Below, one piece after another: positions 5,010 through 24,030 of a stretch of DNA of 24,030 nt. This stretch comes from a virus. The stretch covers positions 1-24,030 of the IMG/VR virus record IMGVR_UViG_3300031951_001183. One strand, written 5' to 3'. Position 1 is the stretch's first letter. Each line of letters begins with the position of its first letter. The translations under genes and the position numbers were made by a program. The notes under the pieces are model-generated. The model was not told where the DNA came from. It made no database searches and saw only the letters and a list, made by a program, of their open reading frames with translations.

Positions 5010-5437
5010 CAGCAGCCCTCCGCGGGCACACGAAAGGCCCGCCGCGCCGCCATCAGCGATACGGCGCCCAGACCTTGCGGCGCCGGCACGACGATATCGG
5101 CCCCGGCGACGAGGCCCAGCGCGGGACCTTCTGGCGAATTGACCACCGCGATATCGCCGACCTGCGCCATGAGCGGGGCGATTTCATCAAAGAGCGATGC
5201 GACCAGCGCGACATGGTCGGCAAAGCCTGCCCGGCGCAGCACCCGCCGGCCGCCGGCAAGCGTGCTGTAGCGGCCGCGGAAGGCGGCCGCCGGGTCTTCG
5301 CCCGTCATCGCTTCGACACAGCCCGCTGCAAAGAGCGCGCAGTCGTGCCGGCCCGGCCGGAAGGGCGTCCTTGCGTGCTGCGTCAGAAAGACCGTCACGC
5401 GCGCGTTCCAGTCGGGTAGCCGCCGCATCGCGGTCAT
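5009..5437 (-). CDS. DUF6950 family phage protein (NlpC/P60-like, tail-associated)
   Basis: A 142-residue protein with the motif GRHDCALFAAGCVEAMTG (Cys33 from this start), which matches the nucleophile segment of NlpC/P60-like cysteine proteins and the DUF6950 family. Such proteins sit just before gpJ in siphoviral tails, as lambda gpK does, and may cut peptidoglycan during entry or act in tip assembly. In NlpC enzymes a His follows in the GD.V segment. Here the equivalent stretch reads VGDIAVVNSPEGPALGLVAG with no His, so catalysis is doubtful. The start is taken as ATG 5437 because it overlaps the upstream stop (ATGA); a GTG at 5455 is also open. Confidence 0.8.
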   Translation of the reverse strand: MTAMRRLPDWNARVTVFLTQHARTPFRPGRHDCALFAAGCVEAMTGEDPAAAFRGRYSTLAGGRRVLRRAGFADHVALVASLFDEIAPLMAQVGDIAVVNSPEGPALGLVAGADIVVPAPQGLGAVSLMAARRAFRVPAEGC

Positions 5438-6027
5438 CGCTGTTTCACCCCCCACCAGACCTCGGCTGAACTGTCCGCCCAGCGCAGGAAACGGTCGTCC
5501 GAAATCCGCCGCTGGTTGGCATGGCTGTTCTTGTTCGGCAGCCCGGATGTCAGCTGGCGCGCGGTCGTGACGATGCTGAGATAGCCCGAGGCCTGTTCGC
5601 CGGCTGCCGGCTGGGTCAGATCGACCTCGTCGACGAAACCGAAGAGCACACGATGCGGCGCCTCGATCTGCGCGCGGGTGATCGGATCGAACAGCGCCCG
5701 GTGGATTTGCACGGCGGCAAAGCGGGGATCGTAGCCCCGGATCAGCTGGCGCGCTTCGTTCGTGATCGTCGTCAGGCCAAGCCGGTAGACCTGCACGTCA
5801 AGCCCGGTCTTGTAGTTCACGGGGGGCACGTCGATCAGGTTGCCCGCGCCGAAATAGGTCCGCGTCTGGCCTTCGACGACGATCTCGGCATGGTCGTCGC
5901 CGGTCCAGAGGCCGAGCGTCTCGGTCGCGCCGGTGTCGCGGTTGCGCGCCGAAAACCAGCACAGCACGCGGGACACGATCATCCCGTTTGTCAGAGCCGT
6001 CTGCAGGGCGGTGCTCAGGCTTCTCAT
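5434..6027 (-). CDS. Distal tail/hub protein (hypothetical, 197 aa)
   Basis: Beginning MRSLSTALQTALTNGMIVSR, this protein has a mid-part GDDHAEIVVEGQTRTYFGAG and a C-terminus rich in Arg and Trp. It lies between the 219-aa distal protein and the DUF6950 gene, the place of lambda gpL or the DUF2163 hub protein of gene transfer agents. The layout (short N-terminal helix, then beta sheet with VLFGFVDEVDLTQP) fits that class loosely. ATG 6027 overlaps the upstream stop (ATGA). The reading frame stays open much further upstream, to 6774, but that stretch is antisense-like Arg-rich sequence lying over the 219-aa gene, so the long version was rejected. Family assignment is tentative. Confidence 0.75.
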   Translation of the reverse strand: MRSLSTALQTALTNGMIVSRVLCWFSARNRDTGATETLGLWTGDDHAEIVVEGQTRTYFGAGNLIDVPPVNYKTGLDVQVYRLGLTTITNEARQLIRGYDPRFAAVQIHRALFDPITRAQIEAPHRVLFGFVDEVDLTQPAAGEQASGYLSIVTTARQLTSGLPNKNSHANQRRISDDRFLRWADSSAEVWWGVKQR

Positions 6028-11655: not shown

Positions 11656-11925
11656 TCAGGCGTCGGAGCCCGCCGTGACGACGAGAAGGGGGTCCGCATG
11701 CAGACGGGCGAGGTCGTCCTCGCTCAGCTCGGCGGCGGGAATGTCGACGGGCACCGGCCCGAACTGCCGGCCGATCCGCCAGCGCGAGGCCTGCTTGGCC
11801 ACGACGGTAACGACGGCAGGCGGCCGGTTTTTGGGCTTGGCGGTCTTCTGTTCGCTGGTCGCGGTCTTCTGTTCGCTGGTCGCGGTCTTCTGTTCGCTGG
11901 TCGCGGTCTTCTGTTCGCTGGTCAT
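11656..11925 (-). CDS. Mu gp35-like small head-region protein with N-terminal heptad repeats
   Basis: An 89-residue protein. The C-terminal half (RWRIGRQFGPVPVDIPAAEL, SEDDLARLHADPLLVV) matches the gp35 type found in Mu-like phages between the major head protein and gp36; its role is not known. The N-terminus is four direct copies of the seven residues TSEQKTA followed by KPKNRPPA. Such a polar, charged tail is likely to be disordered. The repeat is made by four perfect 21-base units, so its length could vary between isolates. The ATG at 11925 has GGAG about 11 bases upstream. Confidence 0.78.
   Translation of the reverse strand: MTSEQKTATSEQKTATSEQKTATSEQKTAKPKNRPPAVVTVVAKQASRWRIGRQFGPVPVDIPAAELSEDDLARLHADPLLVVTAGSDA
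11840..11923. repeat. Four perfect 21-bp tandem repeats inside the gp35-like gene
   Basis: Units at 11840-11860, 11861-11881, 11882-11902 and 11903-11923 are identical. The length is a multiple of three, so gain or loss of units keeps the gene in frame and only changes the number of TSEQKTA heptads. No base differences were seen between copies, which suggests recent expansion. Confidence 0.95.
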
Positions 11926-21755: not shown

Positions 21756-22073
21756 TCAGGCGTCGTCGCCGGGCGCGGCATCGGCAAGCGCAAACCCCTC
21801 GCCAGAGCCCACGACGCAGGTCAGGCCGGCGGCGGTCGTCGCGGTGAGCGTCCAGGTCCCGGTCTCGGCATTGCCCCACAGCTGAACCATCAACTCGCCG
21901 TTCAGGCCCATCGCAACCGGGCTCTCGCCCCAGCCCTGGGCCAGCCTGGCCGCGACATCGGCGGTCGGGCCGCATTGCGCCCCCTGCGCCGACGCAGAGC
22001 CGCTGACAAGGACGGCCAGGACAAGGGCGCAGACAAGACGGCGCAGGGCGCGCGCCGGACGCGTGACGATCAT
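21756..22073 (-). CDS. Exported small protein in the lysis block
   Basis: A 105-residue protein with a Sec signal peptide: MIVTRPARALRRLVCALVLA, hydrophobic core, then VSGSASAQ with probable cleavage after ASAQ. The mature part has two Cys (CGPTADVAARLAQGWGESPV ... AAGLTCVVGSGEG) and a TGTWTLTATT strand. Similar small secreted proteins with the C...RL...GE, GTWT and C pattern are widespread in alphaproteobacteria; their function is unknown to me. No lipobox is present, so it is not an obvious spanin. Start ATG 22073 overlaps the endolysin stop (ATGA), which places it in the lysis cassette. Confidence 0.8.
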   Translation of the reverse strand: MIVTRPARALRRLVCALVLAVLVSGSASAQGAQCGPTADVAARLAQGWGESPVAMGLNGELMVQLWGNAETGTWTLTATTAAGLTCVVGSGEGFALADAAPGDDA

Positions 22074-22717
22074 CGCGAAACCCCCTTTGCCAGCCAGGCC
22101 GGCACGTTGAACCCGGGGCAGGCCTTGGCTGCCCATTCGTTGTGGCCCGAGATGCGGCGGATCGGCGTGCGCGCGCTGATCTGCGCGATAAGCTGGCGCA
22201 GCGCCGCGTCCTGCTCACTCGTGAAATGCGCGCCGAACCGGTCGGTGCCGGCCGAGCCATGCCCGCCGATCAGGCAGACATGGATGACGCCGCGATTATG
22301 CCCCTCAACACCCGCGCCGATCTCGGTTTCGGGCCGACCGGGCGCCACGTCACCGTCGCGGTCGATGATCCAGTGATAGCCGATGTCGCGCCACTTCCGG
22401 TCCTCGACATGCCAGCGACGGATTTCGGCGACCTTGGCGGCCATCGTGAAGTCGTCCATCCAGTCGGGCTCCGTGGCCGAGCAGTGCACCACGATCTCGT
22501 CGACCAGATAGCGCGCGCTGCCCTGATAGAGCTTTTGGGCAGACACGCCCGAAGACAGAGAGGTCATCATAGGCGGTCGCGATGTGACCACCGGCTGCCC
22601 GCGGAAGGCGATGCAGGCGCGCAGGGCCGCCTCGGTCTTCGGGCCCCAGTCGCCGTCGGCCGCGCCCGCGTCATAACCAAGGGCGTTCAGGCCCTCTTGG
22701 ATCGTCTTCAGGCTCAT
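22070..22717 (-). CDS. Endolysin: N-acetylmuramoyl-L-alanine amidase (amidase_2 fold)
   Basis: A 215-residue lysin. Residues about 3-45 look like a small peptidoglycan-binding domain (EGLNALGYDAGAADGDWGPK). The rest is an amidase_2/PGRP domain with T7-lysozyme-type zinc site: His78 (VVHCSATE), His192 (SGHNEW) and Cys200 (AKACPGF), plus Tyr114 (GYHWIIDRDG) and Lys198. The spacing H192-C200 equals H122-C130 in T7 lysozyme. It cuts the bond between muramic acid and L-alanine at the end of the lytic cycle. No signal peptide, so it depends on a holin. ATG 22717 has GAGG 6 bases upstream. Mu has a lysin at the same map position. Confidence 0.93.
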   Translation of the reverse strand: MSLKTIQEGLNALGYDAGAADGDWGPKTEAALRACIAFRGQPVVTSRPPMMTSLSSGVSAQKLYQGSARYLVDEIVVHCSATEPDWMDDFTMAAKVAEIRRWHVEDRKWRDIGYHWIIDRDGDVAPGRPETEIGAGVEGHNRGVIHVCLIGGHGSAGTDRFGAHFTSEQDAALRQLIAQISARTPIRRISGHNEWAAKACPGFNVPAWLAKGVSR

Positions 22718-22745
22718 GGCTGTCCTCGCGCATCCGGCGGTGCCG

Positions 22746-22799
22746 TGGTCAGACCATGCCATTCCCGAAATTCCCGATCCGCCCGCAAGCGCTTGCGGG
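22746..22799 (-). promoter_or_regulatory. Candidate late promoter/operator ahead of the lysis-to-tail operon
   Basis: The 99-base gap between the activator-like gene and the endolysin holds three ordered elements. One is a perfect 18-base palindrome CCCGCAAGCGCTTGCGGG (22782-22799). The next is a direct repeat ATTCCCGA at 22761-22768 and 22770-22777 (9-base period). The last is a smaller inverted repeat TGGTC-A-GACCA (22746-22756). CATGGT on the minus strand (22758-22753) could be a weak -10, about 32 bases past the palindrome centre, an activator-dependent layout as at Mu late promoters. The palindrome could instead act as a terminator of the activator gene, but no U tract follows. Confidence 0.45.
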
Positions 22800-23203: not shown

Positions 23204-23230
23204 GACCGGCCTCCGCCATCTGTCCGGCCC

Positions 23231-23260
23231 TTGACCTACAGCAGCAGAACACAAGATCAT
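23231..23260 (+). promoter_or_regulatory. Possible sigma70-like promoter for the HdeA-like gene
   Basis: TTGACC (23231-23236) and GATCAT (23255-23260) are separated by 18 bases, a passable -35/-10 pair facing the plus-strand gene. It would give a very short leader, with the ribosome site AGGAGG right at the start of the RNA, so the exact start is uncertain. It lies in the 76-base divergent gap between this gene and the activator-like gene. Confidence 0.3.
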
Positions 23261-23279
23261 CGTGCCAGGAGGTGCGATC

Positions 23280-23612
23280 GTGAAGGCACTCGCAATCATC
23301 GCTGTCTCGGGGCTGACCGCGCAGGCCGTCATTGCCCAAAACGTAACCGTTCACGAGTTGCCCTGCTCGGTCCTGACCACCTATCTCCAAGCGCCGCAGA
23401 CGGTCGACAAGGTTGTCGGCCTTCAGTTGGATAGCTTCCTTCTTGGCGTCTATCTCGCAGGCACCGATGAAGCCGGGAACCAACTCGATCTGCCATCGGT
23501 ATGCTCGGACAACCCAGCCATGACGATCAGCATAGCCGTTGCGACGGCTCGGGCGGAAGGCATCACGACGCGGCCTCCGTCCGTCGATATCGATGCGATC
23601 ATCGGTGACTGA
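23280..23612 (+). CDS. Secreted HdeA-like small protein, probable moron cargo gene
   Basis: The only supported plus-strand gene. GTG 23280 has a perfect AGGAGG (23267-23272) 7 bases upstream and gives 110 residues. A Sec signal peptide (KALAIIAVSGLTAQAVIAQ) is followed by a mature part with two Cys: Cys29 (ELPCSVLTTYL) and Cys75 in VCSDNPAMT. The layout C ... FLLGVYLAG ... C-x2-NP is like the HdeA acid-stress chaperone family, which has one disulfide and a CxxNP motif; Rap1a-type proteins are an alternative. It faces the phage operon head-to-head and converges with the methyltransferase. It probably serves the lysogen in the periplasm rather than the virion, which is inference. Confidence 0.7.
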   Translation: MKALAIIAVSGLTAQAVIAQNVTVHELPCSVLTTYLQAPQTVDKVVGLQLDSFLLGVYLAGTDEAGNQLDLPSVCSDNPAMTISIAVATARAEGITTRPPSVDIDAIIGD

Positions 23613-23623
23613 CAACGGCAGGC

Positions 23624-24030
23624 TCACGCGAACCTCGCGGTCTGGTCGCCCCAGACATCGCGCCCGGGCCATGGCTCTCTCGCGAACAACTCGCACGCCC
23701 ACACATCCGGCAGAAGCTTGTCGATCATCGCACGGGCCTCGGGCGGCTTGCGCGAGTGTTCCCGGCGCAGACCCTCGATCAGATTGCGGACGCTTCTCGA
23801 CCTGACCTTGGGGTTGCCGATCGTGCCGATCAGGAAAGGCTCCGTCGCCGAGCGCAAAAGATAGCCGGTCCCGAAAGCCGCCTTGCCTGTGGCTGTCCGC
23901 TTGACCCAGGCGCCGCCGGTTTTATAGGCGAAGCCCCACGCAGCCATGACATCCATCGCCAGATCGAGATGCGGCCAGGTCGTCCACATCATGAGTAGGC
24001 AATCGGGGGCCGCCAGCTGCGACACCGGCA
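23624..24030 (-). CDS. MT-A70 family adenine methyltransferase, 5' end cut by window edge
   Basis: The frame is open to base 24030, so the N-terminus, including the DPPW active-site motif, lies outside. The visible C-terminal part has APDCLLMMWTTWPHLDLAMD, AWGFAYKTGGAWVKR, GTGYLLRSATEPFLIGTIGN, REHSRKPPEARAMIDKLLP and CELFAREPWPGRDVWGDQ. These are the standard MT-A70 segments for N6-adenine methyltransferases. Phages use them to modify their DNA against restriction; Mu uses Mom for a similar purpose but with another enzyme type. It ends 11 bases from the end of the plus-strand cargo gene, tail to tail. Being upstream of the late activator, it is probably an early or middle gene. Confidence 0.88.
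   Translation of the reverse strand, partial: PVSQLAAPDCLLMMWTTWPHLDLAMDVMAAWGFAYKTGGAWVKRTATGKAAFGTGYLLRSATEPFLIGTIGNPKVRSRSVRNLIEGLRREHSRKPPEARAMIDKLLPDVWACELFAREPWPGRDVWGDQTARFA

Follow-up and report, generated by a model that had tools for sequence, protein, structure and literature searches.

The open reading frame that runs against the operon near the right end of this Mu-like phage fragment is confirmed as a real gene, and together with the promoter-like sequence ahead of it, it is likely a moron, that is, a promoter-plus-gene cassette, encoding an HdeA-like protein. The fragment, from an IMG/VR virus record, comprises 24,030 bases and is referred to here as the window, meaning the whole stretch of DNA analyzed. 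Superinfection exclusion at the envelope of the lysogen is the leading, though tentative, candidate for the function of the product.

Gene content and coding status of the antisense frame

Genes of the window are ordered on the minus strand from a tail region at low coordinates to the right end, where a late activator and an MT-A70 methyltransferase are located (Table 1). The first-pass annotation had described a lone plus-strand gene wedged between these two; in agreement with that description, the remaining supported genes all tile the minus strand, the longer plus-strand frames are their shadows, and the flanks were identified as MT-A70 by Pfam and as a Mor/C-type activator by PHROG 836. 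The GTG start, perfect AGGAGG, signal peptide, two cysteines, and CxxNP-type segment listed in the same annotation are likewise all present, with Cys75 of the window protein lying within the segment CSDNP. The interval assigned to the gene (23204–23623) was too wide: it contains the gene proper, whereas positions 23204–23279 constitute the divergent intergenic or promoter region. The moron is arranged tail to tail with the methyltransferase at the left border of the slot between the two neighbors, with stop codons 11 bp apart, and head to head (divergent) with the late activator at the right border.

Table 1. Coordinates of the moron, its putative signals, and neighboring genes in the window
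Feature	Position	Strand	Evidence and remarks
HdeA-like secreted protein gene (moron)	23280..23612	+	GTG start, 110 aa; homologues, AlphaFold
Predicted signal peptide, ~residues 1–19	23280–23336	+	By inspection; hydrophobic N-terminus ends AQAVIA, followed by QN
Mature part of HdeA-like protein	23337–23612	+	Exactly two Cys: Cys29, Cys75
Shine-Dalgarno AGGAGG	23267..23272	+	7 nt before GTG of HdeA-like gene
Sigma-70-like promoter TTGACC-18-GATCAT	23231..23260	+	Sequence match only
MT-A70 adenine methyltransferase, C-terminal part	23624..24025	−	Pfam 1.6e-16; cut by window end
Mor/C-type late transcriptional activator	22817..~23203	−	TTG start 23203; PHROG 836, 2.3e-21
Phage amidase	22070–22762		Near moron slot

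Other minus-strand genes of the window also have distinctive features. Near the tail end, positions 553–1362 encode a 269-aa protein made up of two tandem copies of one domain, likely a duplicated tail-fibre type domain, the halves of which share motifs such as FLSDIP.GAR.A and VFIDTG.AATSRL. The small protein encoded at 11656–11925 starts with MTSEQKTATSEQKTATSEQKTATSEQKTAKPKNR, four heptapeptide repeats. In the lysis region, 21756–22136 encodes a second exported two-cysteine protein with a signal peptide and the sequence GAQCGPT...LTCVVGSGEGF; because it is kept on the operon strand in relatives (43% in L004), it is a normal late or lysis gene and not a moron.

The coding status of the plus-strand frame is established by comparison with related phages. 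An antisense frame of 118 aa in L005 occupies the same place and orientation and is 31% identical to the window protein (pairwise BLASTP 1e-10). Conservation between these two at codon positions 1, 2, and 3 is 0.50, 0.60, and 0.41, and the corresponding values for a second pair of relatives, L069 and L075, are 0.80, 0.91, and 0.71; in both pairs the second position is best conserved and the third worst. The pN/pS ratio is 0.36 for the L069/L075 pair and 0.68 for window/L005, the latter being near saturation and not indicative of positive selection. Additionally, the ribosome-site context CCAGGAGGTG is common to the window, L004, and L005. Many long shadow frames exist in GC-rich DNA, and a 169-aa minus-strand frame also crosses this spacer, both of which would be compatible with an open frame present only by chance or as a shadow opposite a transcribed spacer. 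Such an origin is nevertheless highly improbable: position, orientation, signal peptide, and cysteine spacing are kept in independent phages, as are the coding-type substitution pattern, the ribosome site, and the promoter, and the shadow-frame interpretation was rejected on the basis of codon-position conservation.

Occupancy of the slot and properties of the cassette

Direct homology searches of Pfam, PHROGs, PDB, phages, plasmids, and genome contigs recovered L002 as the sole close copy of the gene; L002 is near-identical, represents the same phage in another sample, and contains the complete methyltransferase (5345–5908, minus strand). Other relatives were obtained by synteny via the two neighboring genes, direct protein searches not having yielded them. 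The slot is empty in 26 compared loci, among them the isolated phage RC1, with the methyltransferase adjoining the activator at a gap of about −8 to 86 bp; some of these loci may represent one prophage included in two collections. Five phages or prophages carry in the slot an antisense HdeA-like gene encoding a signal peptide and two cysteines: the window/L002 phage, L004 (100 aa), L005, L069, and L075 (the last two 101 aa each), with L069 being a prophage of Sedimentitalea xiamensis JM2-8. According to the first-pass annotation, its reading would be contradicted if close relatives with the same flanks lacked the frame in an otherwise coding minus-strand gene. This was not borne out: in these relatives, the slot is either empty or holds an antisense gene of the same kind.

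Antisense slot genes with a signal peptide and two cysteines 51–52 residues apart also occur in L037 (4559–4861) and L042 (4550–4858), both on the minus strand of their loci. They form a second family, 35% identical to each other and with no demonstrated sequence link to the HdeA group, and are kept apart from it. The more distant loci L043, L065, and L074 contain co-oriented genes between methyltransferase and activator, the insert of L074 encoding a 356-aa protein that resembles a phage Gp37/Gp68-type protein; the place therefore accepts various inserts. The closest isolated relatives are Rhodobacter phage RC1, Rhodovulum phage RS1, and Thiobacimonas phage vB_ThpS-P1. RC1 and RS1 share the methyltransferase–activator order of the window but have an empty slot, whereas vB_ThpS-P1 has no methyltransferase before its activator.

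Morons have been described as single coding regions inserted between genes that are adjacent in relatives, with their own promoter and terminator and an odd composition (PMC4378225). Insertion of this kind is apparent both from the 26 empty loci and from the sharp DNA borders between L004 and L005: identity is 85% as far as the methyltransferase stop, similarity disappears across the cassette, and it reappears inside the activator gene. While the neighbors in the window are 78–80% identical to those of L004 and L005, the moron is only 31% identical to that of L005 and has no detectable similarity to that of L004; dN between the window and L005 is 0.68 for the moron, as compared with 0.14 for both neighbors. 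This rapid divergence could also reflect weak constraint. Between L069 and L075, the block comprising gene and promoter is 83% identical and the flanks 70–73%, and dS is 0.51 in the moron versus 1.18 and 1.71 in its neighbors, as would be seen if transfer of the cassette postdated the split between the phages.

The composition of the moron is also atypical, its GC content (60.1%) and GC3 (0.71) being the lowest of the window genes measured; GC3 of the 19 others ranges from 0.74 to 0.92. Both strands of the 1.1 kb around the gene contain a single sigma-70-like site, the one before the gene, as compared with 0.1 expected. The window as a whole contains two such sites, about 1.6 being expected, and because this count is near expectation, the evidence for a promoter is the position of the site and not its existence. 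The TTGA(C/T) box is at a constant distance from the ribosome site in the window, L004, and L005, and the L069 homologue has a better promoter-like sequence (TTGTCA-17-TATACT) in the same relation to the gene. A search for a plus-strand intrinsic terminator behind the moron found none. The locus thus resembles morons generally in having an accessory gene between core genes, a deviating composition, and a putative promoter of its own, and the own strand and possible own promoter to which the first-pass annotation pointed are supported, with the slot empty in many relatives.

Family members also occur outside the slot. Of 397 host-family genomes, 4 and then 6 (largely overlapping sets) were matched by a family profile, and the well-supported new matches have phage-type genes around them. 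In Mu-like prophages, L099 and L100 lie antisense between the gp16-like and DUF3164 genes; L080, from a local profile search, is antisense behind the gp16-like gene of a Mu-like prophage; and the L101 member adjoins an HK97-type capsid gene. A chromosomal locus, L108 (1291–1992, plus strand; genome G391), encodes a distantly HdeA-like exported domain (E = 5e-6) between response-regulator genes; in this longer protein, the HdeA-like domain is followed by an apparent peptidoglycan-binding domain. L109, a marginal match with an internal stop, was disregarded. Only 3 of 199 host-family genomes carry PF06411 genes, and the host PF06411 loci L110–L113 were rejected as a source slot, having no phage gene alongside except, in L112, a marginal activator match of 28 residues (E = 0.005). 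This distribution bears on whether the product is a lysis regulator, an antiholin-like periplasmic protein that would delay or time lysis as T4 RI does. A periplasmic two-cysteine protein near the lysis genes, where the late operon begins, would suit such a function, but the moron is transcribed opposite the late operon, is missing from many relatives with the same gene order, and has other copies at different genomic positions, behind gp16-like or DUF3164 genes, making lysis regulation improbable.

Relationship to HdeA and Rap1a

The window protein has no match in Pfam, PF06411 included, in a search up to E = 10, and searched alone it returned nothing convincing in NCBIfam, PDB, or the phage and plasmid collections; its best match in PHROGs, phrog_6411, is weak (E = 0.08). 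The L004 protein, a close relative from the same slot, scores 23.4 bits against PF06411 (HdeA), for which the Pfam cut-off is 22. Shuffle z-scores are 9.9 for window–L005, 6.6 for window–L069, 7.2 for L004–L069, and 10.6 for L004–L100; L004 and E. coli HdeA give 6.9, a value that is supporting only. No direct link was found between the window protein and E. coli HdeA (z = 0.6), and that between the window protein and L004 is not strong (z = 2.6); the window protein joins the HdeA group transitively, through L005 and L069. In HdeA, the two cysteines are spaced 48 residues apart. This trait, a Sec signal peptide (by inspection) with two cysteines about 48 residues apart, is present here: spacings in the nine HdeA-like members are 46, 46, 47, 46, 46, 46, 45, 45, and 55, that is, 45–47 in eight of nine, with 46 in the window protein and an insertion in the one exception, L101. 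A PDB profile search with the family returned only viral coat proteins (E 0.03–0.26), which were taken as noise.

The AlphaFold model of the window protein contains four helices (mean pLDDT 76 over the full length and 82 for the mature part). The top three matches in a Foldseek search of 350,542 PDB chains were HdeA (1dj8), Rap1a (3zfi), and YmgD (2lrm), all small periplasmic proteins. None is significant (E 2.4–3.1, TM below 0.5): HdeA is the top match, with E = 2.4 and TM 0.39–0.43, and Rap1a has the best TM-score of the PDB matches, 0.47. In the comparison with HdeA and Rap1a folds suggested in the first-pass annotation, both rank at the top, but with nonsignificant E-values and for a protein that has no Pfam match. 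Because the sequence link is transitive and the PDB fold matches are without significance, the window protein is described as HdeA-superfamily-like and is not filed as an HdeA. It resembles HdeA/HdeB (PF06411; 1dj8) as a small exported helical protein with two cysteines about 46–48 residues apart, a syntenic L004 member that passes the Pfam cut-off, and HdeA among its top fold matches; it differs in being phage-borne, encoded by a single gene, very divergent, and without an HMM match, in a family of variable pI.

A true HdeA/HdeB-type stress chaperone, which would loosen or unfold under acid or envelope stress and hold periplasmic clients, is the next most likely function after exclusion, though itself unlikely. 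The sequence link to PF06411, the acidic mature protein (pI 4.1), and the fold ranking are consistent with it. Several observations argue against it: pI across the family ranges from 4.1 to 9.2, indicating that acid-sensing chemistry is not kept; the moron changes much faster than its neighbors; PF06411 is rare in the host family; and the moron stands alone and antisense in phage genomes, whereas E. coli has an hdeAB operon within an acid fitness island (PMC8144458). An exported, exchangeable, fast-changing protein with no conserved acid-sensing chemistry fits a variable-partner binder better than a general acid chaperone, and we favor a periplasmic exclusion or inhibitor role over the latter.

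Somewhat less likely again is a Rap1a/Tai4-like inhibitor of peptidoglycan hydrolases, guarding the lysogen from the amidase effectors of rivals, a phage endolysin, or a tail lysozyme. The window protein is predicted to share with these type VI immunity proteins a general fold class, periplasmic location, and one intramolecular disulfide, and Rap1a is among its top fold matches. BFVD annotates two viral matches as phage proteins with a Rap1a domain, a phage amidase gene is next door, and L108 fuses a distantly similar domain to its apparent peptidoglycan-binding domain. However, the Rap1a Pfam profile gave zero matches for any family member scanned; no cognate peptidoglycan amidase effector gene lies directly beside the moron, whose neighbors are the methyltransferase and late activator; and the Tai4 disulfide (Cys48–Cys108) has a spacing of 60 (PMC3695027), as compared with 46 in the window protein. 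With a tail hydrolase as the target, such inhibition would overlap with exclusion.

Proposed action in lysogens

Partner binding at the lysogen envelope, leading to superinfection exclusion, is tentatively put forward as the most likely job of the product. The cassette occupies a preferred slot of Mu-like phages of Rhodobacteraceae and is oriented opposite to the early/middle/late operon. A promoter of its own would permit expression from the repressed prophage, and during lytic growth, operon transcription running antisense through the moron may shut it down. The product is predicted to be a small Sec-exported protein that adopts, in the periplasm, an HdeA/HdeB/Rap1a-type fold with four helices and one disulfide, and at the lysogen envelope it may bind one protein partner so that competing phages are excluded. 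Possible modes of exclusion are blocked DNA entry or a blocked tail-borne wall hydrolase, the latter in the manner of T4 Sp, which acts on the tail hydrolase (PMC11436027). The envelope of cells carrying the dormant phage is probably altered by the moron product, and the sequence of the window protein points to no target.

Morons and superinfection-exclusion genes of transposable phages used for comparison were olg1/sie1 of Fc02 and gene 10 of Ps56. In the Mu-like phage Fc02, superinfection exclusion is conferred by a gene that runs against the lytic operon and is transcribed in the lysogen (PMC9936078); the window moron likewise runs against the lytic operon and would likewise be transcribed in the lysogen. 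In contrast, Olg1 of Fc02 is similar to a DEDDh exonuclease and is encoded within the repressor transcript, whereas the window product is a secreted HdeA-like protein with a putative role in exclusion. Fc02 is a precedent for the arrangement and not for the protein. Phage carriage of this fold class has a precedent in the Rap1a-domain annotations in BFVD. Judged by titles and abstracts, a non-exhaustive survey of literature linking HdeA to prophages, morons, lysogens, or phages yielded nothing beyond work on host HdeA regulation and general prophage surveys.

Rhodobacteraceae Mu-like phages, and at least one HK97-type prophage, may carry a phage-specialized branch of the HdeA/Rap1a fold as exchangeable, always exported cassettes that form a fast-evolving periplasmic exclusion or inhibitor locus, a proposal that we put forward with reserve. 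The slot is a defined site for cassettes in a group of temperate phages that is common in marine and freshwater Rhodobacteraceae, and its HdeA-like occupants probably form a phage-borne branch of a fold otherwise known from acid chaperones and from immunity proteins directed against hydrolases. As the L069 member resides in a named strain, S. xiamensis JM2-8, expression in the lysogen and exclusion are directly testable. Should exclusion prove to be the function, a protein of the HdeA/Rap1a fold would be acting as a periplasmic exclusion factor, a new use of that fold.
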